The notes beneath the pieces are model-generated. The model saw nothing but the letters and a program-made list of their open reading frames with translations. It did no database searches and was not told where the DNA came from. From Candidatus Gastranaerophilales bacterium (GTDB lineage Bacteria; Cyanobacteriota; Vampirovibrionia; Gastranaerophilales; Gastranaerophilaceae): a stretch of 36,456 bases of DNA. The stretch lies in the NCBI GenBank assembly GCA_016287985.1, contig JAEEXX010000007.1, positions 1 to 36,456 on the forward strand, in the 5' to 3' direction. Positions 13,234 to 36,456 of this stretch are shown in pieces; positions within the stretch are counted from its first letter, which is position 1, and each line of letters opens with the position of its first letter. The position numbers and the translations under genes are program-made.

Positions 13234-13242
13234 AAGTAATTT

Positions 13243-14427: not shown

Positions 14428-14439
14428 AAGGAAACATAA

Positions 14440-15984: not shown

Positions 15985-15998
15985 AGACATGTCAGATT

Positions 15999-17498: not shown

Positions 17499-18227
17499 TT
17501 ATTTATTGGTGACATTCTGGAAAGCAGTACGTACATAGTAGTTTTCATCATTCATAAGTTTACTTCTTAAAGGTTTAAATTCAGAATTTTTAATTTCGAG
17601 AACTATTTGGGCAACTTTTTCCCGTATTGTATATTCACTCTCTTCAGAAGCTCTTGTTAAAATCTGTAAAAGCATGTTTGGATCAATTTCATTAACAAAA
17701 AGTTTCAAGCTTTCCAGGCACCAGTAAAGTTTAAAAAGCTGTTTATTAATAACATATTTTTTATCTTTGTATATAAATTTATTCATTTCACTGAAAGTTT
17801 CATCTATAAATTTTATAACAATATTAATATATGCTTTGGAAAAATTCGGCTGTCGTTTCATGAAATTAACGGAGTTGATAACAAGTCTGCATATATTTGC
17901 ATTTATGTCGACAGATGCGTTTGCAAATATTTCGGGATAATTTAAAAAAGCTCCGACATTGTTGTCTGCCGATAAAAGTTCGTCAATTTTTAACGCTGTC
18001 GCTTCACGTATTTTGCCGTCACAACCAATCAAATTGCTTATAAGTATTTCTCCTTCATCTGCATTACATACGTAATCGAGGCATAAAGCAGCTATTTGTC
18101 GTTCCGGAATATTTCCGCATTTAAGCATGTTTATAAGTTCATTATGTGAAAAAATTTTTTCAGAAAGTTCGCACGCAATTTTAAAATGGTTCTTATTATC
18201 TTTATAACAATTCTTGTTCAAGTTCAT
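17499..18227 (-). CDS. Hypothetical alpha-helical (HEAT-like) protein
   Basis: Repeated helical patterns: IAALCLDYVCNADEGEILISNLIGCDGKIREATALKIDEL; EYTIREKVAQIVLEIKNSEF; ENYYVRTAFQNV. Confidence 0.55.
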   Translation of the reverse strand: MNLNKNCYKDNKNHFKIACELSEKIFSHNELINMLKCGNIPERQIAALCLDYVCNADEGEILISNLIGCDGKIREATALKIDELLSADNNVGAFLNYPEIFANASVDINANICRLVINSVNFMKRQPNFSKAYINIVIKFIDETFSEMNKFIYKDKKYVINKQLFKLYWCLESLKLFVNEIDPNMLLQILTRASEESEYTIREKVAQIVLEIKNSEFKPLRSKLMNDENYYVRTAFQNVTNK

Positions 18228-18352
18228 AACCTTATTACTATACAGCTATATTGTAACATAAGTAATGATGAACTTTGATCAAAAAATAGTTTTAATGTAT
18301 GAGAAAGATTATTTGAATCGGTTATATTATATAAATGAACTAAGGAGAAAAT

Positions 18353-18520
18353 ATGAATTTAATACTTAATTTTATACAGAAATGTTTGGTATTCGAAAAA
18401 GAGCCACAAAAAATCGGCTTATGTCAAATTAATGACAATCCGGTGCCTATTAAAAAGAAAGAACCTTCAATAAAAAACAGAGATGTGAAGCTTTCAGATT
18501 TAATGCGCAGAGCAAGTTGA
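18353..18520 (+). CDS. Small ORF, 55 aa, unknown function
   Basis: MNLILNFIQKCLVFEKEPQKIGLCQINDNPVPIKKKEPSIKNRDVKLSDLMRRAS*, with TAAGGAGA RBS 5-11 nt upstream and a hairpin downstream; below the ORF-track length cutoff. Confidence 0.65.
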   Translation: MNLILNFIQKCLVFEKEPQKIGLCQINDNPVPIKKKEPSIKNRDVKLSDLMRRAS

Positions 18521-18546
18521 TATAATTCTAAAGTATTATAAAAATT

Positions 18547-18574
18547 AAATGCTCCGAATAAACTCGGAGCATTT
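18547..18574. terminator. Bidirectional hairpin terminator
   Basis: AAATGCTCCGA-ATAAAC-TCGGAGCATTT between the small ORF and convergent gltX. Confidence 0.75.
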
Positions 18575-18596
18575 AGTGATATTCTTGCGTATTAGA

Positions 18597-20063
18597 TTAT
18601 TTAATACATTTTTTTGCTCTGTTAAGAGAATGTTCTTTCCCTAAAATAGCTAAAATAGCTGTCATATCTGCTCCGCAAAGTCTGCCTGTAACAGCGGCAC
18701 GAATCGCCCACATTGTGAATTTTGGTTTATAGCCTTTTTGTTCCTTGAAATCCCCTCTGAATTTTTCAAGTTTTTCATGAAGATTTTCCTCTGTCCATTC
18801 CCAACCTTCTCCTTGTTCGACAAATGCTTTGAGAACTTCTTGTGAAAGTTCTGTTTCGATATTTTCTTTAGCTTTTTCATCGAGTTCAACATTATCGCCG
18901 CCAAAGAAATAAGTTACCGCATCTGTAATATCAGAAAGCAGTGTTAAAGGTTCATAAGTAACCTCAATCATTCTTGTATATTGAGCATCTGTCATTGAAG
19001 AAAGATCATATTTTGTTAAATACTTTTTGAGCTTTTCTTTCAGAGTTTCAATCGGCAGCATTTTTATATAATGGCTGTTCATCCATTTTAGTTTGTCATA
19101 TTCGAATATTGAATTTGAAGAAGAAATTTCATTAATTCTGAAATCTTTTGCAATTTCTTCTACAGGCTTAATCTCTTGTCCGTCTGACGGTGCCCATCCC
19201 AACAAAGCAACAAAGTTTAATAAAGCTTCGGTCAAATAACCTTGTTCTACGAAGTCAGAGACAGCAGTTGCGCCGTGTCTTTTTGAGAGTTTACTTCTGT
19301 CCGGAGCAAGTATCATACCTAAATGCCCAAATCTTGGGACTTCGAAACCTAAAGCTTCAAATATTAAGATTTGTTTATATGTATTTGAGATATGGTCTTC
19401 ACCTCTGATTACGTGAGATATTTTCATCAAAGCGTCATCAATAACAACAGCAAAGTTATAAGTAGGCGCTCCGTTTGATTTCATAATTACGAAATCGCCG
19501 ATAAGGTTTGTATCAACATGGAGTTTTCCTTTAACTAAATCTTCAAATTCTAAGATTGAAGAGTTATGAAAGGCCTTTTGGGCTTTTGAAACATTAAACC
19601 TAATTGCCGGCTTTCTGCCTTCTGCTCTCAATTTTGCTTTTTCTTCTTCGGTTAAATTTTCACATTTTTTTGAATACACATAGGCTTGTTTATTTTTTGT
19701 CGCTTCTTCTTTTTCTGCCTCAAGTTCTTCGGGAGTGCAGAAACACTCATATGCAAATCCTTTGTCTAAAAGTTCTTGAACATATTTGGGATAAATATCA
19801 AAACGTTCTGACTGCGTATAAGGACCATAATCTCCGCCTACATCAGGTCCTTCATCCCAATTTAACCCCAAGGCTTTTAATGAATCAAAAATATTATCAA
19901 CATATTCTTTGGAAGTCCTTTCGGCGTCAGTATCTTCTATTCTTAATATAAATTTACCATTATTTTTTTTCGCGAATAAATAATTAAACAATGCTGTCCT
20001 TGCTGTACCGATATGTAAATTCCCGCTCGGCGAAGGTGCGATTCTTACTCTTACGTCACTCAT
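18597..20063 (-). CDS. gltX: Glutamyl-tRNA synthetase
   Basis: VRIAPSPSGNLHIGTARTALFNYLFAKKNNGKFILRIEDTD; KLSKRHGA; start MSDVRV at 20063 with upstream AGGAAAT. Confidence 0.96.
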   Translation of the reverse strand: MSDVRVRIAPSPSGNLHIGTARTALFNYLFAKKNNGKFILRIEDTDAERTSKEYVDNIFDSLKALGLNWDEGPDVGGDYGPYTQSERFDIYPKYVQELLDKGFAYECFCTPEELEAEKEEATKNKQAYVYSKKCENLTEEEKAKLRAEGRKPAIRFNVSKAQKAFHNSSILEFEDLVKGKLHVDTNLIGDFVIMKSNGAPTYNFAVVIDDALMKISHVIRGEDHISNTYKQILIFEALGFEVPRFGHLGMILAPDRSKLSKRHGATAVSDFVEQGYLTEALLNFVALLGWAPSDGQEIKPVEEIAKDFRINEISSSNSIFEYDKLKWMNSHYIKMLPIETLKEKLKKYLTKYDLSSMTDAQYTRMIEVTYEPLTLLSDITDAVTYFFGGDNVELDEKAKENIETELSQEVLKAFVEQGEGWEWTEENLHEKLEKFRGDFKEQKGYKPKFTMWAIRAAVTGRLCGADMTAILAILGKEHSLNRAKKCIK

Positions 20064-20330
20064 CTTATTTCCTTTCTTTTGCATAAAGATTATCTAACAA
20101 ATATAAGTCAAAAACAACATTAAAAATTTTGTTTGTAAATTTCTTGTTTTTTGCTTGCTTTATAATTCATAATATGCTAAGCTAAAATTGTAAAGTTATA
20201 TTAGGATAGAGAGAGTTTGTGATTTCTGTTTAAAGTTGAATTAAATAGACTAAATGAATGGTTTCAATCTATTTTAGATATAATATAGTTTAGGTATGTA
20301 AGAGTTAAATCGGATAGTTAGAAGTAAGCT

Positions 20331-20993
20331 ATGAAAACATGTGATTATATGAAAGAAAAGAAAAAAACAGGTCTTGTACATCGCTTTGGGCAAATTGCGA
20401 ATTTATTTTTCGGTTTTATCAATGAGCACAGAAGTTCCATACCCAAGTTTTTGGCGATTGTAGTTATTTTGTCTGTAATATCTGTGATAGCGGCAAGTAA
20501 AGATACCAGTGAGGCAGGGATTGCTGAGTTTGGTTCCGTCAAAATGGCGACAATTCCGTTGGCTGCATCTTCATCACAGAAGAGCGTGATATCGATTCCT
20601 AAAGGCATGGTAAAGGCTAATCCGTTCGTTCCGTACAGAGATATTAGTGGTACCAGTACGGTTAGCGATGTTCCTGCTTATAATTTGATAGAACCGCCGG
20701 AAGTAATTAATGAGAATTCTGATGCGGCGAGGGTTATGGATACAATAGTATCCGGAATTTTGTTTGACAAGTTTAGTCCGTCTGCAATTTTAAATATTGA
20801 GGGCAATGATTATCTCGTCAAAAAGGGTGATGTCGTAAACAACTATAAGGTTGTTAGCATTGCGCAAGATTCTGTAACGGTGCAATTAGGTGCCAATGTG
20901 TATAAAGCAGGCATAGGTGAAATCCTTACAGAGGGTAATTTAAATTATAATGAAGTTTCAAACCTAAATAATAGATTCGGAGGTGTAAAATAA
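20331..20993 (+). CDS. PilP/GspC-like inner-membrane/periplasmic component of T2SS/T4P
   Basis: N-terminal TM; C-terminal VSGILFDKFSPSAILNIEGNDYLVKKGDVVNNYKVVSIAQDSVTVQLGANVYKAGIGE (HR/PilP-like); first gene of an operon with secretin/ATPase/platform genes. Confidence 0.75.
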   Translation: MKTCDYMKEKKKTGLVHRFGQIANLFFGFINEHRSSIPKFLAIVVILSVISVIAASKDTSEAGIAEFGSVKMATIPLAASSSQKSVISIPKGMVKANPFVPYRDISGTSTVSDVPAYNLIEPPEVINENSDAARVMDTIVSGILFDKFSPSAILNIEGNDYLVKKGDVVNNYKVVSIAQDSVTVQLGANVYKAGIGEILTEGNLNYNEVSNLNNRFGGVK

Positions 20994-22906
20994 TGGGTTA
21001 CAGTAATATAAAAAGAGTGTTGTCCGCAGCTTTATTGCTTGCTTTTTCAATGCCATCAACATTTGCGTTCCCGGCATACAACAGTTCTTACTCGAATCCA
21101 CGCTCAAATGCCAGTTCAATGACTTTGGCCGGTGATGTGAGTTTGACTGATAACAATCAAGCCATTACATTGAGTTTGCGTGATTCTGATGTAAAACAAG
21201 TATTAAGAATGTTTGCAGATAAAGCCGGAATGAATATAGTTTTCCATAGTTCTGTTGACGGTAAAGTCACACTTGATTTGGTTAACACTCCGATAAATGA
21301 AGCTTTTAAATTAGTTTTATCAGTTGCCGGTTTAAACTATTACAAACAAGGCAATACGATGGTTATAATATCGAAAGACAGTGATGCAAATACTGCATAT
21401 TCAAAGCAAGAAATGATGGTATTCCCTATTACTTATGTAAGTGCTACCAGTATTGCTGACTTTTTAAATCAAAATGTATTTAGTATGAAAAAAACAGGTA
21501 TGTCCGGTACGGATGCTGCAACTGTAAACTCAGCAACTAATGAGCTGATTGTATTTGGTATGCCTTCTGATGAAGCAATAGTAAGAAAAGTTATTGCTCA
21601 GTTCGACAGAGAGCCGTATTCAAGGACATTCCATGTAAATCATACAACTCCGGCTGAAATGGCTGACATGATATGTAATTTGTTATTACCATCTCGTGGT
21701 ATGGGTGAAGCGAATCAATCTTCTCCAAGCAAGGAAGGTGTTCCGATAGATGTTCCTGATGCGGCTCCCGGCATGGTCGTAGGTGGTGCAGCAGGTATTA
21801 TGACAGGTGGTGCTGCCGAAGCCGGTGGGGTTGATGAATTAAAGCTTGGTGAAGGTATTGTTGCTTGTACAATGGCACCAACAACAAGTGGTTCAGTTGC
21901 TCCTTTTAACGTTCAGAATTTATCCATTGCGTACTTCCCTCAAAGAGGTACAATTACAATGATGGGTGGTTCTGATGCCCAAGCAAGAATGGTTGAGCAT
22001 TTTATAAAAGCTAATGACGTAAAACAGCCGCAGGCATATTTGGAAGTTTCTATTGTAGAATTAAACGAAGCAGGTTCAAAAGAATTTCAGAATCAATGGC
22101 AGCTATATAACAAATATTGGAAAGCCAGCTTTGATGGCGAAGGTTTCAGTGCTGGTCGTCCTACTATAGGAAATTATACAAAGAATCGTACTCCTTTAAC
22201 ACGTTATGTTTGGGAAAATATTACAGGTTTGCCTTATCAAGATAAAGATGGTGCTTGGAAAGTTCCTGAACAAGTAGCACAAAGCTTTACAGATGTGTTG
22301 CCTGGTGTTAAGCTTTCTTGGACGATGAATTACATTATATCAAACCGTAAGGGTAGAGTTTTAGCTAATCCAAAAATATTGATTACAAATGGTAAAGAAT
22401 CTGTAATTGATTTAACACAAGATTATGTTGAAAAAATGACGGCAGAATATTTAACGTCTGCAAGTAACGGCGAAAGTACAGTAGGTACAGTTCAAAGGGA
22501 TTATACTATAGGCAGCGATTTGGGTATAAAAGTTTCTTTGATTCCGTTCATTTCTCCTGAGGGTTATGTAACATTAAATATTAAGCCTGAATACTCAACA
22601 ATAGCAGATCAAGTTTATGCATTGGGTGAAACAGGAACTAATGAGTTAGTTGCTACATTATTAAGCAGAAGAGACTTGGATTTGAAAAATGTTAGAATTA
22701 AAGATGGTGAAACACTTGTAATCGGCGGTATGTTGCAAGAAGTCGAAAATAAGACAGTCAAAAAGATTCCTGTATTAGGAGATTTGCCTTTGGTCGGTTC
22801 TGCATTCCGTTCGACATCTACTAATAAAACAAAATCCGAGTTGGTTATAATGATTACTCCAAATATTATCAACGACGGAGAAGGTGCTATTGCTGATAGT
22901 ATATAA
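20993..22906 (+). CDS. Secretin (GspD/PilQ family)
   Basis: Signal peptide; SLRDSDVKQVLRMFADKAGMNIVFHSSVDGKVTLDL (N-domain); LDLKNVRIKDGETLVIGGMLQEVENKTVKKIPVLGDLPLVGSAFRSTSTNKTKSELVIMITPNII (secretin core). Confidence 0.95.
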   Translation: MGYSNIKRVLSAALLLAFSMPSTFAFPAYNSSYSNPRSNASSMTLAGDVSLTDNNQAITLSLRDSDVKQVLRMFADKAGMNIVFHSSVDGKVTLDLVNTPINEAFKLVLSVAGLNYYKQGNTMVIISKDSDANTAYSKQEMMVFPITYVSATSIADFLNQNVFSMKKTGMSGTDAATVNSATNELIVFGMPSDEAIVRKVIAQFDREPYSRTFHVNHTTPAEMADMICNLLLPSRGMGEANQSSPSKEGVPIDVPDAAPGMVVGGAAGIMTGGAAEAGGVDELKLGEGIVACTMAPTTSGSVAPFNVQNLSIAYFPQRGTITMMGGSDAQARMVEHFIKANDVKQPQAYLEVSIVELNEAGSKEFQNQWQLYNKYWKASFDGEGFSAGRPTIGNYTKNRTPLTRYVWENITGLPYQDKDGAWKVPEQVAQSFTDVLPGVKLSWTMNYIISNRKGRVLANPKILITNGKESVIDLTQDYVEKMTAEYLTSASNGESTVGTVQRDYTIGSDLGIKVSLIPFISPEGYVTLNIKPEYSTIADQVYALGETGTNELVATLLSRRDLDLKNVRIKDGETLVIGGMLQEVENKTVKKIPVLGDLPLVGSAFRSTSTNKTKSELVIMITPNIINDGEGAIADSI

Positions 22907-22913
22907 TTAAACT

Positions 22914-24953
22914 ATGTCTAATCAACTGGAAAAACTAAAAAATAGTATAAAAAAAGAATATACTGATAATTTCGAATTAAACCTGATGAAATCATCAGGT
23001 TTTATTCCAGTTGATAAAAGACAAGAGGATTTTTATGTAATATTAAACAAGGCAAATGTATCTAATAAGATAAAAATCGAAACCTTAATAAAAGAGAAAT
23101 TTAGTGGTTGTAATCCAAAGTTTATACCTGTAGAATCAAGCGACTTTGAGTCTTTATTTAATTCAATCCAACAAACTGTAACACCGGTTCAGGATAGTAA
23201 TGCATCAGCATCAGATACGGAGTTATCTGCTGAGGATATGCTTGTGGGGATTGGTTGGATTACTCAGGCACAGTTAGACGAATGTAAATCAGATGCTGTT
23301 AATCGTAAATTACCTCTAAGTGCCGTTTTTGCGGACAAAGGATATTTATCTCAAGAAAAAATTGCTTCTTACTTGAAAAAAAAATATTCATGTGAAGTTA
23401 TTTCAAAGTCAAATATTACGGTAGATGCAAAAATTTTGAAAATGCTTCCTGATGATTTTGTTGAACGTAAACATGCAATAATCATGTCAATGGAGGGTGA
23501 TAAGCTTGGTGTTGCCATGGTTGATCCAAGCGATAAATATACAATAAGAGAAATTTCATTGTCTACCGGACGAGCTCTGAATGTGTATGCGATTGCATAC
23601 AACGAATACGAAATGTTTCTCAAAGAATTTGATTTAATGAAACAAAATGAGAAACATGCAAAAGAAACAGAGAGAATTATTCAAAGTATTGAAGAAGAAA
23701 CAGCCCAATATAACCAGGAAGAATCGCTATGGTCTCAGGTAGAGAAAGAGCTTCAAGATGCCAGCGGTAACGTAGCAAAATTTGTATATAAAATTATTAC
23801 AGATGCTATAGATGCAAAGGCTTCTGATATTCACATAGAGCCAAGGATCGGTTATTATGTTGTAAGATTGCGTTCTGATGGTATCTTAAAAAAAGTTTTA
23901 GAAATCCCTGGTAGTATTGAACAAGCCGTTATTACCCGTTTTAAAGTTTTGGCAAGAATGAATATTGCCGAGCACAGACGTCCTCAGGATGGTACTTTTT
24001 CCATTAAATATAATGACAGGATGTACGATTTTCGTATAAATACGCTACCCGTATCAGGTAAAGAAAAAGTTGTAATACGTATTTTGGCGCCAGCCGTAAG
24101 TTTAAAAGCTGCCGGCGATAAAATGATTATTACAGGTGCATCAGAAGAAGATATAACAAAAATCCATGATATGGTTCAATGTCCAAATGGAATTATTCTT
24201 ACATCAGGTCCTACCGGTTCAGGTAAAACAACAACTTTGTATACAATTCTAAAAGCACTGAATAAAGAAGATGTTAATATAACTACAATTGAAGATCCTA
24301 TAGAAATTAAACTTGAAGGTATTAATCAATCTCAGGTAAATCCAAAGGCTGATATTACGTTTGCTTCTTGTATGAGAGCTATATTACGTCAAGACCCTGA
24401 TATTATTCTAGTTGGTGAAATCCGTGACTTTGAAACATTGGAAGTCGCAATATCTGCTGCTTTGACAGGTCACCTCGTATTAAGCACGGTGCACACGAAT
24501 TCAGCGGCTGCAACTGTTACACGTTTAATAGAAATGGGTGCTAAGGACTATTTAGTTTCATCAACATTAACAGGTGTAATTGCACAGAGACTTGTCAGAA
24601 GGCTTTGTGATAAATGTAAAGAGGCTTATTTCCCTACTGAAGAAGAAGTTAAGCATATTTCAAATAATCCGGAAGAGCAACAGAGATTGTTGAAAACAAA
24701 ACTATATCGTAAAAAAGGTTGTAAAGACTGCGGTTATTTAGGCTATGCAGGGCGTTTAGGTATATATGAAATAATGCCCATTACACGTGAGATTAAAAAA
24801 CTTATTGCGCAAGGTGCGCATGATATAGAAATAGAAGAAGCTGCTGTTGCAGCAGGTATGAATACTCTTAAAACATCTTGTTTGAATCATATTTTACAAG
24901 GAAATACGACATCAAGCGAGTTTATAAGGGTTCTTGGTTACGCAAACGAATAG
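22914..24953 (+). CDS. GspE/PilB-family secretion/assembly ATPase
   Basis: GPTGSGKTTTLYTIL Walker A, TIEDPIE Asp box, LRQDPDIILVGEIRDFETLE, CDKC...CKDCGYLGYAGRLGIYEI tetracysteine. Confidence 0.96.
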   Translation: MSNQLEKLKNSIKKEYTDNFELNLMKSSGFIPVDKRQEDFYVILNKANVSNKIKIETLIKEKFSGCNPKFIPVESSDFESLFNSIQQTVTPVQDSNASASDTELSAEDMLVGIGWITQAQLDECKSDAVNRKLPLSAVFADKGYLSQEKIASYLKKKYSCEVISKSNITVDAKILKMLPDDFVERKHAIIMSMEGDKLGVAMVDPSDKYTIREISLSTGRALNVYAIAYNEYEMFLKEFDLMKQNEKHAKETERIIQSIEEETAQYNQEESLWSQVEKELQDASGNVAKFVYKIITDAIDAKASDIHIEPRIGYYVVRLRSDGILKKVLEIPGSIEQAVITRFKVLARMNIAEHRRPQDGTFSIKYNDRMYDFRINTLPVSGKEKVVIRILAPAVSLKAAGDKMIITGASEEDITKIHDMVQCPNGIILTSGPTGSGKTTTLYTILKALNKEDVNITTIEDPIEIKLEGINQSQVNPKADITFASCMRAILRQDPDIILVGEIRDFETLEVAISAALTGHLVLSTVHTNSAAATVTRLIEMGAKDYLVSSTLTGVIAQRLVRRLCDKCKEAYFPTEEEVKHISNNPEEQQRLLKTKLYRKKGCKDCGYLGYAGRLGIYEIMPITREIKKLIAQGAHDIEIEEAAVAAGMNTLKTSCLNHILQGNTTSSEFIRVLGYANE

Positions 24954-24965
24954 GAAGGGTTCTAT

Positions 24966-26162
24966 ATGCCAATATACAGTTATGAAGCATTAAAATCTGG
25001 TAAACAAATTGTAAAAGGTGAAGTCACAGCTGCAAATTTAAAAGATGCTCGTGAAATTATCAGAAAGATGGGGCTAGTACCAACAAGGCTAAATGAGTTT
25101 GTTGATAACAAAAAGCGTAATGGTAATTTGTCCAGCATGTCATTGGTGGAAAAGATTGATTTTATATCAACATTACAAATTTTGCTTTCATCCGGTATTC
25201 CTGCCGTAGAATCGCTGATGTTTATGGAGCAGGAAGCTGCAAGAAAGAAAATTCGTGATATCTCGAGAGTTTTAAAAACTCAAATCATGGGAGGTTCTAC
25301 TTTTGCAGATACTTTAGCAAGGTATCCGGGTATCTTTGGGTATATCTTCATAGGTTTGTTTAAAGCAGGTGAAGAAGCCGGTGAATTAGAAAAAACCTTG
25401 GGACGTATTAACGGGTTACTTACTAAGCAGGCTAATATAAAAGCTAAAGTTATCGGGACTCTTATTTATCCGGCATTTGTTATTTTATTAGCTATTGTAG
25501 TTACCTTAGTTATGTTAATGTTTGTATTCCCTGCTTTCAAAGAAATGTTTGAGCAGCAGGATAAGGCATTACCGTGGATTACTTCAATGATGATTGCTGC
25601 CGGTGATTACTTAAAACAATATTGGTTTACAATTCCAATATTCCTTGGGGCATTTATTGCTTTTTGTATTGTGTGTCTCAGATGGAAACCGGCAAGGGAA
25701 ATTTTGGATAAAACGGTGTTAAAAATACCTTTGCTTAATAATTTGATATTATATTCAAACTATTCAAACTTTTTATCTGTTTTAAGTGTATCATATGATG
25801 CAGGTATTCCGATTGTCGACTGTTTACACTTAGCAGTTATAACGTTAGAAAACTCTGTATTAAAAACCAAACTGAGTAGTGCAATTGTCAAAGTTCAACA
25901 AGGTTTGCAAGTATCTCAAGCGTTAAAATCAACTAAAATTGTTCCAAGAATGCTTTTATTTATGATAGCAACCGGTGAACAATCAGGTCGTTTGGGTGAT
26001 ATGCTTGAAAAAGGTGTTAATTTCTTGGATAGAACTTTGGATGGTATTATTGATACAATGACCAAGATGATTGAGCCGATAATGCTTTTGGTAATCGGAA
26101 GTATTGTACTTGTAATGGCTCTGTCTCTATACTTACCGTTGTTCCAGTCTTATATGCAATAG
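24966..26162 (+). CDS. GspF/PilC-family inner-membrane platform protein
   Basis: YSYEALKSGKQIVKGEVTA; IDFISTLQILLSSGIPAVESL; LFMIATGEQSGRLGDML; polytopic GspF folds twice. Confidence 0.95.
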   Translation: MPIYSYEALKSGKQIVKGEVTAANLKDAREIIRKMGLVPTRLNEFVDNKKRNGNLSSMSLVEKIDFISTLQILLSSGIPAVESLMFMEQEAARKKIRDISRVLKTQIMGGSTFADTLARYPGIFGYIFIGLFKAGEEAGELEKTLGRINGLLTKQANIKAKVIGTLIYPAFVILLAIVVTLVMLMFVFPAFKEMFEQQDKALPWITSMMIAAGDYLKQYWFTIPIFLGAFIAFCIVCLRWKPAREILDKTVLKIPLLNNLILYSNYSNFLSVLSVSYDAGIPIVDCLHLAVITLENSVLKTKLSSAIVKVQQGLQVSQALKSTKIVPRMLLFMIATGEQSGRLGDMLEKGVNFLDRTLDGIIDTMTKMIEPIMLLVIGSIVLVMALSLYLPLFQSYMQ

Positions 26163-26189
26163 TCGAAAATTTAATTATTAAGAGGCAAG

Positions 26190-26477
26190 ATGGAAAAGAA
26201 AGAACAGACAGAAAAAAATGAATTCAAAAACTCTGCTTGGAAAGAAAGAGTTTATATTGAAACTTCTGAACACATTATCACCGGTTATATATTTATGCCG
26301 AGAATCGGTAAGAAGAACAGGCTGTTAACGGAAGTATTAAATGCAGGAAAGAATTTCTTGGCGGTAAAAGGGTGTACGCTCGAGTATAAACATCTTCCCT
26401 CAAGAGAAGTTGAAAGCCACGATTTTATGCAGGTTAATGTTTCTTCAATACTAATTATGAGACCTTTTGATGAATAA
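26190..26477 (+). CDS. Conserved-looking hypothetical protein, 95 aa
   Basis: ERVYIETSEHIITGYIFMPRIGKKNRLLTEVLNAGKNFLAVKGCTLEY..., RBS AAGAGGCAAG; overlaps SDR start. Confidence 0.7.
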   Translation: MEKKEQTEKNEFKNSAWKERVYIETSEHIITGYIFMPRIGKKNRLLTEVLNAGKNFLAVKGCTLEYKHLPSREVESHDFMQVNVSSILIMRPFDE

Positions 26478-27288
26478 AAAGACTTACGTAATAACCGGTG
26501 CGGCATCCGGTATTGGCTTGGCGCTGACTAAAGAATTGTGTGCAGAGAATATGGTGTTTGCCGGGTACAGAAGCGAACCTAAACGTGAGTTGTTAGAGTC
26601 GCTTTCGGGGAATATTTATCCTTTTTATGCAGATTATTCAAAGCCGGAAACGCTCCCAAGTGCTATAGAGTATATAAAATCAAAGTGTGACAAAATTGAT
26701 ACACTGGTTAATATAGCCGGTTGTGTTGTCGCAGGTCCTATTGAGAAGATTCATATTAATGAAATAAAAAGGCAGTTTGAAGTAAATGTTTTTGGTCATA
26801 TTGAAATGACTCAAGGGTTAATAGATTTACTTAATGATGGTAGAATTATCAATATTAGTTCTATGGCAAGTTTCGGGATATTTCCGTTTATTTCTCCATA
26901 CTGCGCTTCAAAAAAATGTTTGGATATGTTTTTTAATTCATTATTGATTGAAAACAAACGAAATATAAAGGTAGTTTCTATAAAACCCGGGGTTATATCG
27001 ACTCCCTTGTGGTGTAAATCTATTGATGAAAATTCTAAGGATGAAGATATACGTATCGGATATGAAAAAGAGATGGATTACATTATTAAAAATGCTCAAA
27101 AAAACGAGAATGACGGCTTAGAAGTGAGTGAGGTAATAAAAGTAATATTAAAAGCGGATAGTGCCAAAAACCCAAAACTTTCATATACTGTTGGGTCGGA
27201 TGCTCTTTTCGCAAAATTTATTTCGAAGCTCCCGCAGAATCTTGTTAATAAAATTGTAAAATTAGGAATAAAATTAAGAATTAAGTAA
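26470..27288 (+). CDS. SDR-family NAD(P)-dependent oxidoreductase
   Basis: YVITGAASGIGLALTKEL; NIAG; YCASKKCLDMFFNSL (YxxxK). Confidence 0.92.
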   Translation: MNKKTYVITGAASGIGLALTKELCAENMVFAGYRSEPKRELLESLSGNIYPFYADYSKPETLPSAIEYIKSKCDKIDTLVNIAGCVVAGPIEKIHINEIKRQFEVNVFGHIEMTQGLIDLLNDGRIINISSMASFGIFPFISPYCASKKCLDMFFNSLLIENKRNIKVVSIKPGVISTPLWCKSIDENSKDEDIRIGYEKEMDYIIKNAQKNENDGLEVSEVIKVILKADSAKNPKLSYTVGSDALFAKFISKLPQNLVNKIVKLGIKLRIK

Positions 27289-27289
27289 G

Positions 27290-27727
27290 ATGGGAAGAAA
27301 AAAGAAAAGTTTTGTATCTAAAAATAAGACGATAAGTTTTATAATAATATTTTTTTTGATGCTGACCGGAGGGTACTATATCTTTCTTAATTACGTACCT
27401 GAAAAGTGGTACGAGATGCAAACAATGATGCCGAATCAAGTTGAATCGTATTATGTAAATCAATGGTGTACTTCGGATTTCGGCAGAAAAGAGGCTGTAC
27501 TATGGGATATGACAAGGGTAGATTGTCTAGCAAAAGACTATGCAATAGAATTTGATTTTGCAAAAAAATGGGCGGAATCAGTTGGACAGGCATTGTACTA
27601 TTCCAAAATGACAGGCAAAAAACCCGCAGTAACTCTCATCTTAACAACTCCTGCAGATTACAAATATGTCAAACGTGTAGAAAGATTGGATAATAATATA
27701 AAAATATTTTTGGTAAAAGCATATTAA
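27290..27727 (+). CDS. Membrane-anchored protein with PD-(D/E)XK nuclease-like core
   Basis: N-terminal TM helix; TRVDCLAKDYAIEFDFAKKWAESVGQALYYSKMTGKKPAVTLIL, consistent with D...ExDxxKK core pattern. Confidence 0.6.
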   Translation: MGRKKKSFVSKNKTISFIIIFFLMLTGGYYIFLNYVPEKWYEMQTMMPNQVESYYVNQWCTSDFGRKEAVLWDMTRVDCLAKDYAIEFDFAKKWAESVGQALYYSKMTGKKPAVTLILTTPADYKYVKRVERLDNNIKIFLVKAY

Positions 27728-27729
27728 GC

Positions 27730-27775
27730 AACGCCAAATAGGACGGCATTATGCCGTCCTATTTGGCGTTTTTTA
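27730..27775. terminator. Strong bidirectional intrinsic terminator
   Basis: AACGCCAAATAGGACGGCAT-T-ATGCCGTCCTATTTGGCGTT, 20-bp perfect arms followed by TTTT. Confidence 0.93.
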
Positions 27776-27785
27776 AATCTATTAA

Positions 27786-27938
27786 CTAAGCTCTTTCACT
27801 GCCGGATATAGCAATAGCATGTCTTCCTTTAGCGCGTCTTCTGTTTAGTACTTCACGACCGCCAGGAGTAGCCATTCTTGCTCTAAATCCGCTTACGTGT
27901 TGTCTTTTGAGCTTTGTTCCTTCCAGTGTACGTTTCAT
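27786..27938 (-). CDS. rpmH: 50S ribosomal protein L34
   Basis: Minus reading [50 protein letters not shown] (50 aa); L34 signature. Missing from ORF track because it is short. Confidence 0.96.
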
Positions 27939-28045
27939 TTTTCTATTTCCTTTTCAGCCAGTTTTACATATAATGGTTACATAGTATACAAAAAAAAGCT
28001 TTTAGTCAAATATATGTTTAAGTAATATTAAGTCGGGAGAAGAAA

Positions 28046-28864
28046 ATGGATTATAAAAATTGTAATATTGGTTTTATCGGTTCAGGCAAAATGGCCGGCG
28101 CAATTATTAAAGGGCTTATAAAAACGGGTTTTGTATCTTCAAAAAACATAATTGCTACGCAGGCGGAAAAAGAAGGAATTGAAGAAAAGTCAAAATTGCT
28201 TGGGGTTAGAATAATATTAGATAATAAAGAATTAGTTAAAAACAGCGATGTAATATTTATTGCAACAAAACCGAATCAGGTAATGGGCGTACTTAAAGAA
28301 ATATCAGAATATGTGACAGAGCATAAATTAGTTGTATCAATAGCAGCGGGGGTTAATACAACGAAATTGGAAGCAAATTTACCCGGTGGTACAAGAGTTG
28401 TGCGTGTTATGCCCAATACTCCTGCACTTGTTGGTGAAGGTATGAGTGGGATTTTTGGCGGGGAAAATGTAAAAGACAACGATTTAAACTTTGTTAAAGA
28501 ATTGCTTTCGACTATCGGAAAGTGCATTTTAGTCGAAAATGAAACTCAAATGGATATAGTAACTGCTATTTCTGGTTCGGGGCCGGCATTTTTCTATAAG
28601 GTTATAAATGATATAGCAAGAGCCGGCGAAAAACTTGGATTAGATTACGAAAAGGCACTTTTATTGAGTATTCAAACCGCTATCGGTTCGGGGAAAATGG
28701 CGCTGAACCGACAAACCGATATGGAGACATTAATTTCAAATGTCGCAACTAAAGGCGGTTGTACGAGGGTCGGAGTGGATGTAATGGAAGATAAGAATAT
28801 TGAAGATATATTATATGAAGTTATCCAATCAACGACACAGAAAGCTTCTGAGCTTGGAAAATAA
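28046..28864 (+). CDS. proC: Pyrroline-5-carboxylate reductase
   Basis: IGFIGSGKMAGAIIKGLI; VVRVMPNTPALVGEGMSGIFGG; AISGSGPAFFYKVINDIARAGEKLGL; ATKGGCT. Confidence 0.96.
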   Translation: MDYKNCNIGFIGSGKMAGAIIKGLIKTGFVSSKNIIATQAEKEGIEEKSKLLGVRIILDNKELVKNSDVIFIATKPNQVMGVLKEISEYVTEHKLVVSIAAGVNTTKLEANLPGGTRVVRVMPNTPALVGEGMSGIFGGENVKDNDLNFVKELLSTIGKCILVENETQMDIVTAISGSGPAFFYKVINDIARAGEKLGLDYEKALLLSIQTAIGSGKMALNRQTDMETLISNVATKGGCTRVGVDVMEDKNIEDILYEVIQSTTQKASELGK

Positions 28865-28879
28865 TATTTGAAAATATTA

Positions 28880-28909
28880 GGGGCGGAAAAATTTTAATTT
28901 TTCCGCCCC
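28880..28909 (+). terminator. Hairpin terminator
   Basis: GGGGCGGAAAAA-ttttaa-TTTTTCCGCCCC directly after proC. Confidence 0.8.
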
Positions 28910-28973
28910 GGTTAAATGTTAAATTTGCTTAATCTTCCTTGAAGGGGGCAAATATCTGTGTTAAAGTTGAGCT

Positions 28974-30648
28974 ATGTCAAAGTTTATTCCGCTTCACATT
29001 CACACAGAGTATTCACTGTTAGACGGCATGATTAGGGTTCCTGATTTGGTTAATTATGCTAAGGATAATGATTTGCCTGCAATTGCTATCACAGATCACG
29101 GAGTTATGTATTCTGCAATTGAATTTTATGAACTTGCCAAGAAAGCAGGTATAAATCCTCTAATAGGTTGTGAATTTTATGTTCATGATGGTGATATACA
29201 TAAGCAGGACGCTCATCACAATCCTTTATATCACTTGATTTTGATAGCTAAGAATCAGCAAGGGTATAAAAATCTTATCAAACTTGTTTCAACAGCATGG
29301 TGTGAAGGATTTTATTATAAACCCAGAGTTAATTTTGCGCTTATCGAGAAATATCATGAAGGTTTGATTTGTGCTTCTGCATGTCTTGGCGGAGAAGTTT
29401 TAAAGAATCTTCTTGCAGGTGAAAAAGAAAAAGCAAAAGAAACGGCACAAAGATACAAAGATTTATTTGGTGATGATTATTATATTGAGCTTCAGGACCA
29501 TGGTCTTGCTGAGCAAAAAAGGACAAACCCTGATTTAATAAAAATTGCACGAGAACTTGATATAAAAATGATTATTACAAATGATTCGCATTATCTTAAA
29601 AAAGAAGATGCGGATGCACAAGATACTTTATTATGTTTGCAGACAAATGCTAATAAAGATGATGACAAAAGATTTTCATTTCCGAATAACGAGTTTTATT
29701 TAAAGTCTAAAGATGAAATGCGTCAGGCATTTTCATGGATGGATGAGGAACTTTTCGAAGAATGCTGTAGAAATACAGAAAAAGCTGCTGCAAAATGTAA
29801 TGTGGAAATTGAACTTCACAATGCACCATTGCCGCACTACGAAGTTCCGAATGGGTATGATATTCCTTCCTATCTTGAACATCTTGTTATGGAAGGCTTG
29901 AAAAAAAGATATGGTAATCCTGCGCCTGACGACATTGTTGAACGTGCTAAATATGAACTTGGTGTAATAAATCAAATGGGATTTCCCGCGTATTTTCTCA
30001 TAACTTGGGATTTTATTCACTATGCAAAGACTCATGGTATTCCTGTCGGACCTGGTAGGGGCTCGGCGGCAGGTTCGGTTGTTGCTTATGCACTTGAAAT
30101 AACGGATATTGACCCGATTCAGCATAAACTGTTGTTCGAAAGATTTTTGAATCCGGAACGCTTCACCATGCCCGATATTGATATAGATTTTTGTATCGAC
30201 AGGCGAAGTGAAGTAATTGATTATGTTATCCAAAAATATGGTGAAGATAAGGTTTGTCAGGTAATAACATTTTCGACTTATGCTCCAAAAGCTGCATTTA
30301 AGGGTGTCGGTAGGGTTTTGCAGGTTCCGTTTGTTGAAGCGAACAGATTGACAGGTCTCATTGAACCTGCCCTCGATGTAGCCAGAGTTACAAACCCTAA
30401 AGCCGAATGGCTCAGAGATATTATTCAAGCCGAGGGTATGTCGGAATTTAAGCAGTTGTATGAAGATGATTATAAAATTACAAATCCAGAAAACGGGAAT
30501 GAAATAAGTTTTAAACGCTGGGTGGATATGGCAGTTGCAATAGAGGGTTTAAAATGCGGTACAGGTACCCACGCTGCCGGAGTTATTATTTCGCATGCGC
30601 CATTGGATACGATACTTCCCGTTCAACCTTCAAAAGATGGTATTCAAG
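28974..30648 (+). CDS. dnaE: DNA polymerase III alpha subunit, N-terminal part, truncated at contig junction
   Basis: PHP domain FIPLHIHTEYSLLDGMIRVPDLV; GPGRGSAAGSVVAYAL; FTMPDIDIDFCIDRR; breaks off after VQPSKDGI. Confidence 0.93.
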
Positions 30649-30650
30649 GC
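30641..30650. other. Probable assembly-chimera junction
   Basis: dnaE (plus) and a response regulator (minus) are both interrupted here; base composition and gene content change on either side. Confidence 0.85.
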
Positions 30651-30915
30651 CCATGACCACGTTTACTTCTGCATCGCTTGCTGTCAGAAAGATTACCGGA
30701 ACATCTTCTCTTTCTTTGATGAATTTGCAAACATCATATCCATTTCCATCCGGAAGATTGATATCAAGGATGCATATATCATATGTATTTGTGCTAAAGG
30801 CGTCTTGCGCTTCTTCCTTGGTCTTCATATGGACAACATCATAGCCCTCTTTTTCCAGAGAGTACTTAAGCCCCATTCCAATTGCGTCATCATCTTCAAG
30901 TAAAAACAGCTTCAT
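30646..30915 (-). CDS. Response regulator receiver domain, N-terminal part, truncated at junction
   Basis: MKLFLLEDDDAIGMGLKYSLEKEGYDVV...YDICILDINLPDGNGYDVCKFIKEREDVPVIFLTASDAEVNVVMGLE; after MGLE the frame runs into antisense dnaE sequence. Confidence 0.9.
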
Positions 30916-30948
30916 TTCATGTGCTCCTTGTTCATCTATATATAAAGA

Positions 30949-31614
30949 TTATAAGCAGAGTAGTGCTAATAATCCATATGAAGCAAGTCCCAGACTTGCT
31001 GCGCAACAGCTTGGTGCATCAATAAAGATATCCAGTTTAGTCGCCCTGAACAAAAAACCAACGAGCTGGAAAACTACCGGATTTAATATCACGCACCATA
31101 TTGGAGCATGGATAAAGCCCATAATAATAAGCACTATGACAGCGATCGCCGGAATGATGACCAACATTGAATATAGCGCAAAAAACGGTACATAAATCTG
31201 CTTAAATACTGACTGGATCACATCTTCAGCAAGCTTTCCATCAGCTTTTGCTATGATCTTTCTGTATATTGTTGGCTGCTGGCACAGGAATGTATGGATC
31301 ATAAATCCTCCCATTGCCCCGATCAGGAATATTACAGAAAGCACTGTCGAAATAACAGGATGTTCAGCATGAAGAGTCATCATGAGCGCAATAAATCCGC
31401 AGGAGTACATAGGTACTGCAAACATCGCAAGGATATCAGACCACACAAACCTCCAGTGGGCCATATTTTTCCATTCGCTGTCAATGACGCCCATCTTACC
31501 AAGTTTCTTATTTTTCGGTCCCTTTAAATCCAGCAAAAGATCTGCAGTAGCACAAAGAAGACCACCAATAATTCCAATTACTGCCAATATAGTATTCATT
31601 TTCTTTTCCTCCAA
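30949..31614 (-). CDS. Multi-pass membrane protein of unknown function
   Basis: Six or so hydrophobic segments; start may be MNTILAV (codon 6). Confidence 0.75.
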   Translation of the reverse strand: MEEKKMNTILAVIGIIGGLLCATADLLLDLKGPKNKKLGKMGVIDSEWKNMAHWRFVWSDILAMFAVPMYSCGFIALMMTLHAEHPVISTVLSVIFLIGAMGGFMIHTFLCQQPTIYRKIIAKADGKLAEDVIQSVFKQIYVPFFALYSMLVIIPAIAVIVLIIMGFIHAPIWCVILNPVVFQLVGFLFRATKLDIFIDAPSCCAASLGLASYGLLALLCL

Positions 31615-31619
31615 AAGCT

Positions 31620-33035
31620 TTAGGAAGCTTTCTGTACTAGGGGCTCTGACTGATGTTCACCAGCAAGATTATTAAGCCAGCGCTCTTTCTTTAGCCAAAA
31701 ATGGAATATAACGGTCCTGACAATATCCAGAAGTTTTACGCAAAGGTACATCTGTACCGGACCGAAATCGGTATATCTTGCAAGCAGGAAAAGCATAGGG
31801 AGCATGACTACTATTGTCATTCCAGCATCTGCATATGCACCCATCTTCGTGTCGCCGCCAGATCTTGCAATAGCCTGCTGTGCGTTTACAAGTACCCATA
31901 CAGGCATAAAGAATGCCATAAGTATTACCATACTCCTTGAAATTGCAATGGCGCTTGGACTTAGCTTTCCAAACACAACAGGAATGATAAGTGTTGTAGC
32001 AAATCCGACAAAAGTCATGGCAACACCAAATACGATAGCTCCTGATAAAAGCCATGTTTTCTCTCTGCGGGCTTTTTCAAGATTTCCCTCACCAAGGGTT
32101 TTTCCAATTATTACAGTAGTTGCAGAGTAGATTCCGCCAAATGCTACAAAAAACAGATTAGCTATGGCAAAACTCGATGCCATACCTGAAACTACATCTG
32201 CTCCTCCTCTTCCGTTATAGATAGCTGTCGTTAATGTTTCAGAAAGGACCCAGGTCATCTCACAAAACAGCATCATAGCGCCTTTTCTTATTATTTCCTT
32301 AAACAGCTTTCCATCTACCATGAAATCTCTGTTAAAGCGAATTGCAAAATCAGGTCTGCTTTTAAAATAAATACATACAAATATTACAAACTCCAGTGTT
32401 CTGGCTATAACAGTTGCATAAGCAGCTCCTCGTACCCCAAGTGCACGGAATCCAAAATTTCCATAGATAAGAAGGTAGTTGAATACCGTATTTGTAAGTG
32501 TAGCAATAACTGTTACTATAAGAGGTGTTTTAACTTTTCCCATATCCCTAAGTGAACTGGCAATGCTCATAGAAATGCACATTGGAATTCCTACAACAGA
32601 CATAATTCGTATGTATGGAACTGCCTCATCAAGAATAAGAGGCGCCTGTGTGTTTCCAATAACCATAAGTGACAGGATTTCTCTTGGATATACAAGGCAC
32701 ACCATAAGGTATGGAATGAGCGCCACAAATCCTGCAAGCAGTTTAAACATAAACGCCTGCTGCATTCCGCCATGGTCTTTTGCACCGAAAAACTGCGTAA
32801 GGAATATTCCTCCGGTCATGGTGATCGTGTTAATTAAAACCATAAACACAAAAAGCACCTGACCTGCAATATTTACACCAGACATTGATATATCACCAAG
32901 TCCTGAAACCATAAAATTATCTATAAGTGATACCATGCTTTGTATGAGCTGCTGAAGCATTATAGGTACTGCTATCGCCAGCACATTTTTATAAAATTTT
33001 CCATCTCCAAAAATCTCATTCGTTTTTTCCATCAC
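31620..33035 (-). CDS. MATE-family efflux transporter
   Basis: IAVPIMLQQLIQSMVSLIDNFMVSGLGDISMSGVNIAGQ; 12-TM MatE architecture; FFMPVWVLVNAQQAIARSGGDTK. Confidence 0.93.
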   Translation of the reverse strand: MMEKTNEIFGDGKFYKNVLAIAVPIMLQQLIQSMVSLIDNFMVSGLGDISMSGVNIAGQVLFVFMVLINTITMTGGIFLTQFFGAKDHGGMQQAFMFKLLAGFVALIPYLMVCLVYPREILSLMVIGNTQAPLILDEAVPYIRIMSVVGIPMCISMSIASSLRDMGKVKTPLIVTVIATLTNTVFNYLLIYGNFGFRALGVRGAAYATVIARTLEFVIFVCIYFKSRPDFAIRFNRDFMVDGKLFKEIIRKGAMMLFCEMTWVLSETLTTAIYNGRGGADVVSGMASSFAIANLFFVAFGGIYSATTVIIGKTLGEGNLEKARREKTWLLSGAIVFGVAMTFVGFATTLIIPVVFGKLSPSAIAISRSMVILMAFFMPVWVLVNAQQAIARSGGDTKMGAYADAGMTIVVMLPMLFLLARYTDFGPVQMYLCVKLLDIVRTVIFHFWLKKERWLNNLAGEHQSEPLVQKAS

Positions 33036-33104
33036 ATTAATTCTCCCTAACTCTAATCTGATCGCTCACCATCCCACAATCATTACATTATCACCAAATA
33101 AAAA

Positions 33105-33142
33105 ACAGACCCTTTGTTTCACTCAATTGGGTCTGTTTTACA
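33105..33142 (-). terminator. Terminator hairpin with 16-nt loop AATTGAGTGAAACAAA (copy A)
   Basis: Minus strand: AAAACAGACCC-AATTGAGTGAAACAAA-GGGTCTGTTTTTT; spans the stop codon of the 33119-33718 CDS. Confidence 0.8.
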
Positions 33143-33718
33143 CTTATTTATAACTATCTCTGAAAGATTAAAAAACTGATCCTTGTAATCAGATGTGTAG
33201 GATCTTAGCAGCTCCTCAACATATCCCGGTGGAAATTTAGCAAGGAAACGCTGCTCAGCAGCAATCTTATCAATGTATTCTTCAATTGCATCAATTCCCG
33301 TTTTGCCTTCGATTGGCGCTACCGTAGGATAATCCATCGTAATGATCGTCTCCTGAGGAGAAAATCTTGGAGAATAAAGCTTGAAGAACCCCGGAATAGC
33401 CTTTAAAACAGTATCATTCAGATTGCGATTGCCATATGAAGAAAATGAAGAAATGAGTACCTTATACTTTTCCTTGGCACGTTCTACCTTATCCACAACC
33501 TCCTGAAACCCTACTTCATACAGGCTTCGTGCATCCGCCTGCTGGCAGGTTACCAGACTATTAGCATTCATAGACTCAGCTTCATGAATGCAATATAAAA
33601 CCGCTTCCATCAGATGCTGCGCTGCCTCATAGGTAACGGAAGTACTCTCGCCTCTAGTATATAGATCAGTTAATTCCGCAACTATTGGAATAAGCTCTTC
33701 CGGATCATAATTCATCAA
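33119..33718 (-). CDS. Hypothetical protein (DUF6179-like by recognition)
   Basis: MNYDPEELIPIVAELTDLYTRGESTSVTYEAAQHLMEAVLYCIHEAE...; overlaps the upstream gene. Confidence 0.65.
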   Translation of the reverse strand: MMNYDPEELIPIVAELTDLYTRGESTSVTYEAAQHLMEAVLYCIHEAESMNANSLVTCQQADARSLYEVGFQEVVDKVERAKEKYKVLISSFSSYGNRNLNDTVLKAIPGFFKLYSPRFSPQETIITMDYPTVAPIEGKTGIDAIEEYIDKIAAEQRFLAKFPPGYVEELLRSYTSDYKDQFFNLSEIVINKCKTDPIE

Positions 33719-34205
33719 AATCGTCTCCTAAGTTTAGTTTTTCACGCTTATATCTGTCAGCCCAGTTCTCTCCGGCTCTAACGCTTCTTGCGAAGTCTTC
33801 CAGTGCTGTTCCTTCAAGATATTCAAGATCACCACCGGACTCGTTTTCATAGGCGTTTTTCATAATACCAAGCAGTTCATCATCTGAAACCATGTCCATG
33901 GATTCATTCTTGTACAGGAAAAAGATTTCCTGCAAGCGGGCAAGAGTTTGGGCATAATCGTCCTGATTGATAAATGAAGAATCCGAGAAAGCTCGAATAA
34001 GTTTTGGACTTATGCTATCGCCAAACTCCACGCGCCTTTCTTCCCTCAGAGTATCTCTTTTTGCTTCCACTAGGGCTGTAGCTTCTTCCTCTGACAGGAC
34101 AAGTCCATTCTCTTTGCTCTCTTCGTTTGTTTTCATTATCTGGCTGACCTGATACTGGTCAGATATTTTTTGTAAATAGTTATCCTGCAATTGTTTCTCC
34201 TTCAA
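33705..34205 (-). CDS. Hypothetical protein (DUF6323-like by recognition)
   Basis: LSEEEATALVEAKRDTLREERRVEFGDSISPKLIRAFSDSSFINQDDYAQTLARLQEIFFLYKNES... Confidence 0.65.
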   Translation of the reverse strand: MKEKQLQDNYLQKISDQYQVSQIMKTNEESKENGLVLSEEEATALVEAKRDTLREERRVEFGDSISPKLIRAFSDSSFINQDDYAQTLARLQEIFFLYKNESMDMVSDDELLGIMKNAYENESGGDLEYLEGTALEDFARSVRAGENWADRYKREKLNLGDDFDEL

Positions 34206-35327
34206 TTACATTCCATATACAACCTGCATCCAGCCTGCAGTAATCCTTCCTGTCTGAATGACAGCTTCATGGTCATAGAATTCTAAAAACTCACCAAACA
34301 TCTCATTATTAAGCTTATTGCTCCACCTAGTCCTGTCAAGATTCTTATGTATATAGTCTGCCTTGTCAGAAACGAACCTATCCCGGTTCTCACCGGTAGC
34401 ATAATCATAGTCAAGGGTTTCAAGCCACTTATCAAATTCGGCATTAAACTCGTCAATATAAGTCATGTCATTAAATACATAGCTGTGACCCTTGTCTTTA
34501 AGCTTCATAAAAGAAAACCTGGCATCATCCTTGTATATGTCATAGTAAATGTCGTACCCATAGGAGATTCCAACAACATTGTCATCTTCACTGTGAACTA
34601 TCATGACTCTGGCGTCGCTGGCTTTAAATCCCTTCATGGCTGTTGCACTTGCATACTTTCCGAATTTAATTCGCTCATGAATCCTTATACAGGGCATCAT
34701 AAGAGCTGTTAATGGTCCAGCCTGCTCTTTAGCTCCAACCTCAAAAACATCAGATGACTTGTTGCATCCGGATACAGCGATCACTGCTGCAACTTCAGGA
34801 TGATACTCAAGGACACTGCAGGCGCTATATGCTCCCCAGCTATGTCCAAAGAGCATAATGGGAACATCCGGGAAATCATCGTTCTCCTCAACAAAACTTA
34901 TCGCATGGTCAAGATCAATAACGCCCTGAGGGATTCCGCCAATAGCCTCGCCTTCACTCTCATCATTACCTGTGACGTCATATGCAAAGGCGAAGTATCC
35001 ATTCCTGGCAAAAAAGTTCGCGGCTTCCATATAGAAATTGTGGCCTGCTCCAAATCCATGGGCTATAACAACTATCCCCTTAGGTTCTTTATCTGTGCTA
35101 TATAGATATCCGGAAAGCATCTGTCCCTTGTCCGATGCAAACTCATAATGAGTTGCGTTTAGTCCCTCAAAATCTGAGACCTTAAGAGCTGTTGGCTCAT
35201 ATGTATCCAATCTTTTACCGAATACATTGTTGTAGCAGTACACCGAAACGCCATAGTCAAGACCAATAAGCAAAGCCAGCGTGACCATCGCTATTGTAAC
35301 AATTTTTTTAACCTTAAATCCATTCAT
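34206..35327 (-). CDS. Alpha/beta hydrolase with N-terminal membrane anchor/signal
   Basis: GIVVIAHGFGAGHNFYMEAANFFARNGYFAFAYDVTGNDES; MLFGHSWGAYSA (GxSxG); Asp/His triad segments. Confidence 0.9.
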   Translation of the reverse strand: MNGFKVKKIVTIAMVTLALLIGLDYGVSVYCYNNVFGKRLDTYEPTALKVSDFEGLNATHYEFASDKGQMLSGYLYSTDKEPKGIVVIAHGFGAGHNFYMEAANFFARNGYFAFAYDVTGNDESEGEAIGGIPQGVIDLDHAISFVEENDDFPDVPIMLFGHSWGAYSACSVLEYHPEVAAVIAVSGCNKSSDVFEVGAKEQAGPLTALMMPCIRIHERIKFGKYASATAMKGFKASDARVMIVHSEDDNVVGISYGYDIYYDIYKDDARFSFMKLKDKGHSYVFNDMTYIDEFNAEFDKWLETLDYDYATGENRDRFVSDKADYIHKNLDRTRWSNKLNNEMFGEFLEFYDHEAVIQTGRITAGWMQVVYGM

Positions 35328-35348
35328 TGCCTTACTCCGTTACAACAA

Positions 35349-36038
35349 TCAGCCAAGTGCCAAATCAGCAGCTGCTGTTGCATGTATAATTGTTGTGTCA
35401 TATGTCGGAAGTGCGCTGTCCTCATCTTTTATGAGCATACCAATCTCGGTACAGCCAAGTATCACGCCCTCAGCTCCTTTTTCCTTCATATCTTCAATAA
35501 TCCGCTTATACTCATCTCTTGATGAATCCAAAACTTTCCCAAGACAAAGCTCGTTGAAAATTACATCGTTTACAAATTCCATATCTTTGGACTCAGGAAG
35601 CACAACTTCAAGTCCTGCATCAACAAGCTTGTCTTTAATAAAGTCCTGAGTCATCGTAAACCTGGTCCCAAGAAGCCCAACTTTCTTTATACCATCGCGC
35701 TTTATTGCATCAGCGGTAGCATCTGCTATATGAAGGATCGGTACACTTATTTCTTTTTCGATATCCGGAACAAGCTTATGCATCGTATTTGTTGCTATTA
35801 CGATGAAGTCAGCCCCGGCTCTTTCAAGTCTTACCGCAGCATCTGCCAGTATCACAGCATTACCTTGCCAGTAGCCATTCTTCATATTTTCTTCAAGCTC
35901 TGCAAAATCAACGCTATACATTAGTATTTTGGCGCTATGAAAACCTCCAAGATGCCTTATCACTTCTTTGTTTATGATTTCATAGTATGTCACGGTGCTC
36001 TCCCAACTCATACCGCCTATAATTCCAATGGTTTTCAT
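35349..36038 (-). CDS. Aspartate/glutamate racemase family protein
   Basis: MKTIGIIGGMSWESTVTYYEIINKEV; VIATNTMHK; GVILGCTEIGMLI. Confidence 0.93.
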   Translation of the reverse strand: MKTIGIIGGMSWESTVTYYEIINKEVIRHLGGFHSAKILMYSVDFAELEENMKNGYWQGNAVILADAAVRLERAGADFIVIATNTMHKLVPDIEKEISVPILHIADATADAIKRDGIKKVGLLGTRFTMTQDFIKDKLVDAGLEVVLPESKDMEFVNDVIFNELCLGKVLDSSRDEYKRIIEDMKEKGAEGVILGCTEIGMLIKDEDSALPTYDTTIIHATAAADLALG

Positions 36039-36211
36039 CTTATCCCTCCGATGTCTTTTCTTATTTCAGTTCTAAAATCGTCCTGCCATCCTTTGTATCC
36101 TGCAAGTTCGCCTCCAAAGCTGTCATCTTTATCGTACATGCTTTTCCGGGTACTACCAAAAAAGCGTTTTATCCAGGATAAGTGGCTAGGGATTTCTACT
36201 TTGTTCATCAT
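36035..36211 (-). CDS. Small hypothetical protein
   Basis: MMNKVEIPSHLSWIKRFFGSTRKSMYDKDDSFGGELAGYKGWQDDFRTEIRKDIGGIR; GGGAGGG RBS upstream of ATGATG at 36211/36208. Confidence 0.65.
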   Translation of the reverse strand: MMNKVEIPSHLSWIKRFFGSTRKSMYDKDDSFGGELAGYKGWQDDFRTEIRKDIGGIR

Positions 36212-36274
36212 GACTTTCCCTCCCTCAACTATATCAAAGTTAATTTGTCTTTTTACGATTATCAATTTAACACC

Positions 36275-36320
36275 AAACAAAAAACAGCCCCGAGGTTACA
36301 CTCATTTGGAGCTGTTTTTC
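36275..36320 (-). terminator. Terminator hairpin with 16-nt loop AAATGAGTGTAACCTC (copy B)
   Basis: Minus strand: AAAAACAGCTCC-AAATGAGTGTAACCTC-GGGGCTGTTTTTT; downstream of the GNAT stop. Confidence 0.8.
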
Positions 36321-36331
36321 ACTGATTTATA

Positions 36332-36456
36332 TCATTTTTTAAACCAAAATGAATAATGATACTTCTTTCTAAAGCCGAGCCTCTCATAGAATTCCATATC
36401 GGAAATGACGTAAGCTCTTTTTGCTCCAAGCTTTTTTGCTCTGCCCAGCGCTTCAA
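36332..36456 (-). CDS. GNAT-family acetyltransferase, C-terminal fragment (runs off right edge)
   Basis: Minus reading EALGRAKKLGAKRAYVISDMEFYERLGFRKKYHYSFWFKK*; FYERLGFRKK is typical of the GNAT C-terminus. Confidence 0.75.
   Translation of the reverse strand, partial: EALGRAKKLGAKRAYVISDMEFYERLGFRKKYHYSFWFKK

Follow-up and report, generated by a model that had tools for sequence, protein, structure and literature searches.

The window, the whole stretch of DNA that was analysed, is one complete contig (C129; 36,456 bp) of metagenome bin G000, which comprises 2.01 Mb in 211 contigs and is 92.9% complete and 5.03% contaminated. Within this contig, one plus-strand dnaE gene and one minus-strand response-regulator gene run into each other and are both broken. 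Does this junction exist in the chromosome of an organism, or did it arise on the way to the assembled contig?

Two genes are broken at one base

The open reading frame 28,974–30,656 (+) encodes residues 1–557 of DnaE (DNA polymerase III alpha), followed by QGP and a stop codon after SKDGI, as the first-pass annotation of the window had read it; the dnaE part proper (28,974–30,644) contains codons 1–557 only. The same annotation regarded the gene as intact through its PHP and catalytic motifs. The PHP domain is indeed complete, but the polymerase core is partial; the Pfam DNA_pol3_alpha domain stops at position 234 of 260. On the opposite strand, the open reading frame 30,586–30,915 (−) encodes a receiver domain through residue 91 (VVMGLE) and antisense dnaE thereafter. 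The genuine part of this gene, the first 91 codons of a 236-residue OmpR-like response regulator, occupies 30,644–30,915.

The last base of the dnaE homology and the first base of the Lachnospiraceae homology are identical, position 30,644. The two breaks, previously placed within about 10 bp of each other, therefore fall at the same base, and at the artefactual join (30,644–30,645) only one base, T at 30,644, is common to both parents. In agreement with the earlier claim that mobile-element ends and direct repeats are absent, neither a direct repeat across the join nor an element end, target duplication or integrase at its boundary was found; the response regulator that the boundary interrupts is whole elsewhere. 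Ten proteins near the join were scanned, and none matched a recombinase or transposase family.

The left part matches Gastranaerophilales congeners

Composition, congener DNA matches and the relatives of dnaE identify positions 1–30,644 as a native Gastranaerophilales (Cyanobacteriota/Melainabacteria-type) chromosome segment. The closest named relatives of the window dnaE come from Candidatus Gastranaerophilales MAGs, with amino-acid identities of 78–81%, and the region 14,400–30,644 has DNA matches in six congeners, at about 63–83% identity. We searched the dnaE DNA against 57 congeneric genomes, leaving the bin itself out. Fifty-two of them matched, and in all 52 the match ends at query position 1670 or 1671, corresponding to 30,643 or 30,644 of the window. 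Thirteen of these junctions were read base by base; all continue from SKDGI into VQTGYP(K/P)HE, unlike the window gene, which reads on as CAAGGCCCATGA. Wherever congener DNA was read, dnaE is uninterrupted past the window break. A second genome with the same dnaE/response-regulator fusion had been named as evidence against a chimera; the junction occurs in none of the 52 matching congeners, and no match to its exact 38-mer was obtained in viral contigs.

Upstream of dnaE (14,400–28,900), gene order is poorly kept in the Gastranaerophilales genus, and most of the genes are on separate contigs in congeners; different from these, the block around 20.6–27.7 kb stays together. As proC does not adjoin dnaE in congeners, we weighed a second join immediately upstream of dnaE. 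It was rejected, because the upstream gene order is scattered across congener contigs, i.e. poorly conserved; the upstream genes match congeners at genus-typical identity.

The remainder of dnaE lies at the end of another contig

A profile search of the bin with PF07733 (polymerase core) gave one match, located inside the window dnaE. When the remaining 611 residues of a relative's DnaE were used as query, one match was found in the bin, at 26,559–27,707 (−) of contig C170; it covers query residues 230–610 and reaches the contig end exactly. The C-terminal remainder of dnaE, about 392 codons in length, occupies C170 26,529–27,707 (−), and the C170 sequence spans 'LKCHYPVEYLSALLSS...' through the DnaE C-terminus. 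The stretch of ~687 bp missing between the two dnaE pieces was not found in the bin.

Two close congeners, G031 and G042, carry the window dnaE part (89–90% identity), ~687 bp and the C170 part (84–86%) in order on one contig. The gene next to the dnaE remainder on C170, an open frame at 25,309–26,475, also follows dnaE in both of them, with an identity of 89% in G031 and of 96% in G042 over the 47 residues that are on the contig. Because both dnaE parts and the next gene have this order in G031 and G042, the chromosome of the organism most likely runs from C129 (up to 30,644) through ~687 bp to C170; dnaE would carry on into C170 after about 687 unassembled bases.

The right part is collinear with two Lachnospiraceae genomes

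The right part (30,644–36,456) was searched against 397 genomes, the family of a Lachnospiraceae MAG, and then against the 79 genomes of the best-match genus; the family label rests on genome G002, the holder of locus L033 (Lachnospiraceae bacterium isolate RGIG3741). None of 25 Lachnospirales and Clostridia genomes had given a DUF6796 match, and these DNA searches of the family and the donor genus were used instead. In the family search, response-regulator matches start at window position 30,643 or 30,644 in many genomes, and among the 79 genomes of the donor genus homology to the right part never begins before 30,643. Full-length matches of 30,644–36,456 were found in two genomes of the genus, G487 (C10:118787-124591; 94%) and G485 (C1:31071-36876; 92%). 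Both alignments run end to end without rearrangement, and their first base is exactly 30,644. In both genomes the response regulator is whole, with 236 residues, and VVMGLE is followed by MGADDYVCKPF, the kind of continuation that had been expected for an intact receiver domain. The sequence left of the join position has no relation to dnaE in either genome. Within the bin, no other occurrence of the right part was found.

In addition to the response regulator, the right part contains, all on the minus strand, a DUF6796 gene (30,949–31,614; 96% DNA identity to genome G286), a MATE-family efflux transporter gene (31,620–33,035), and DUF6179, DUF6323, alpha/beta hydrolase and Asp/Glu racemase genes (33,119–36,038), the order of which is partly shared with genome G369. 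Since G487 and G485 are collinear with it and have the response regulator whole, the right part is, judged by its sequence, an ordinary collinear Lachnospiraceae segment. Searched separately, as the first-pass annotation had advised, dnaE on the left side led to 52 congeners and the right side to G487 and G485, and the annotation's view of a Melainabacteria-like left and a Lachnospiraceae-like right side holds.

Several features of the right part were observed in passing. In G286 (C18:627436-628138, aligned to window 30,907–31,611; 96%), conservation is limited to the DUF6796 gene plus ~40 bp of downstream sequence, with neither the response regulator nor the MATE gene adjoining, whereas G487 and G485 retain the whole cluster at 92–94%. 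The DUF6796 gene may have been relocated in G286, or its neighbours may have been lost there. We had considered this 96% block as a mobile cassette, which was set aside as the whole right part is collinear in G487 and G485. At 33,079–33,152 and 36,268–36,326, the intergenic DNA holds a terminator-like hairpin in two similar copies (AAAACAGcCCC...GGgGCTGTTTT; z −3.6 to −4.9); the element matches many donor-genus genomes at other positions and looks like a genus-wide dispersed family of intergenic hairpins or terminators. The right contig end cuts another minus-strand gene (36,340–36,456), with the C-terminal sequence ...SDMEFYERLGFRKKYHYSFWFKK, acetyltransferase-like by eye; the last ~120 bp of this gene are 98–99% conserved in several donor-genus genomes.

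The composition changes at the join

As a baseline for composition, we used sampled stretches of 22 bin loci, cut into 29 chunks of 5.8 kb. The GC content is 0.34–0.36 in the left chunks versus 0.407 in the right part; the right side is less AT-rich, as noted before (40.7% versus about 34–36% GC). The tetranucleotide distance to the mean profile of the bin is 0.013–0.015 for six 5.8-kb left chunks and 0.041 for the right part, with a bin mean of 0.017; the right part lies farther from the mean profile than 28 of the 29 bin chunks. The comparison of GC and tetranucleotide profiles on both sides, which the annotation had proposed, therefore returns an ordinary left part and an outlying right part, and the shift occurs at the same place as the homology switch.

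The second composition outlier of the bin is at about 11,600–20,000 of locus L153 (G000:C150), with a GC content of 0.40–0.46. An open frame there spans at least 1,933 codons and may encode a large surface or repeat protein; a check for rRNA found none in this region.

Origin of the join

Taken together, phylogenetic origin switches at one point, from congeners of the bin on the left to Lachnospiraceae on the right, composition breaks there, and the true continuation of each side is found elsewhere: that of dnaE on C170, that of the response regulator in G487 and G485. At a single base, genes of two different phyla break off; relatives of each carry it complete, and the remainder of dnaE sits at the end of another contig. 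We are therefore nearly certain that C129 is an assembly or library chimera of Gastranaerophilales and Lachnospiraceae DNA that was binned by its majority, and that the broken genes are artefacts. The first-pass annotation had preferred an assembly chimera as well; the dnaE continuation on C170 and the collinearity of the right part with two Lachnospiraceae genomes support it. What speaks against it is that C170 starts ~687 bp past the join, so an insertion with its far end in the missing stretch may physically be accommodated.

In the chimera, bases 1–30,644 would come from the Gastranaerophilales genome that the bin represents, and bases 30,645–36,456 from a Lachnospiraceae bacterium that presumably shared the sample. 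A chimeric read or read pair, produced by library ligation or PCR template switch, may have been accepted at a low-coverage end, or a gap may have been closed faultily; the binning program would then have placed C129 by its 84% native majority. Classic de Bruijn misjoins require a shared k-mer. As the overlap at the join is essentially none (1 bp), repeat collapse is unlikely, and we infer that a chimeric read or pair or a gap-closing error is the likelier route. The absence of a shared repeat or k-mer at the join, beyond the 1-bp overlap, counts against the repeat-collapse subtype and leaves a chimera as such unaffected.

Real horizontal transfer, in which a Lachnospiraceae fragment entered the Gastranaerophilales dnaE by illegitimate end-joining, is very improbable. 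The 1-bp overlap fits end-joining, and the foreign block is contiguous and 92–94% identical to Lachnospiraceae genomes, as a recent transfer could give. However, the dnaE product is an essential replicative polymerase, and the bin yielded no dnaE other than the one that the transfer would disrupt. The foreign DNA, too, ends within a gene, and neither an integrase nor an IS end nor a repeat was seen; no second copy of the junction was found in congeners or viral contigs; and the rest of dnaE is present on C170 in native gene context. We give an equally small chance to a very recent inter-phylum illegitimate recombination, by which some Gastranaerophilales cells would carry 5.8 kb or more of Lachnospiraceae DNA within dnaE, and the others an intact gene.

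Still more improbable is the insertion of a mobile element or prophage into dnaE, the right part being its end. Although insertion within a gene can give an abrupt one-sided break, the right part corresponds to a chromosomal block of Lachnospiraceae, its edge is a truncated response regulator, the scanned proteins and the join lack recombinase or transposase families and terminal repeats, respectively, and the collinear, unbroken host context in G487 and G485 contradicts it. A native Lachnospiraceae part and a foreign Gastranaerophilales part, the misjoin being real but the bin mixed the other way, deserve as little credence: composition alone is silent on which part belongs, but the sampled bin chunks cluster with the left part, the bin's congeners carry it, and the sampled stretches suggest that most bin contigs type as Gastranaerophilales. 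The join is artificial whichever part is native.

Consequences and comparison with known systems

The significance of the chimera is one of quality control only; the adjacency of the two genes carries no biology, and the genes on either side of 30,644 should not be taken as an operon or as evidence of horizontal transfer. C129 should be split at this position and bases 30,645–36,456 removed from the bin. The truncated dnaE and the truncated response regulator of this bin should be discarded, as should every Lachnospiraceae gene credited to it (MATE transporter, racemase, DUF6796/DUF6179/DUF6323).

Compared to bacterial dnaE (NF005298/TIGR00594), residues 1–557 of the window gene align over the N-terminal half of the family; it is not a split or fused variant, for C170 carries its C-terminal part and congeners have the gene unbroken at this point. 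Among OmpR-type response regulators, the 272 bases of the window gene are ~98% identical to the intact 236-residue gene of G487, and it differs in its truncation, which is owed solely to the join. Chimeric contigs are a recognised class of MAG error (PMC8201837); according to the authors of GUNC, misassembly joins fragments of several origins into chimeric contigs and is rarer than mis-binning (PMC8201837). C129 shows no material difference from the chimeric contigs that GUNC targets, its join being one without a long shared word; like them, it switches sharply between gene blocks of two phyla, and both genes at the switch point are truncated, with the native continuation on another contig.
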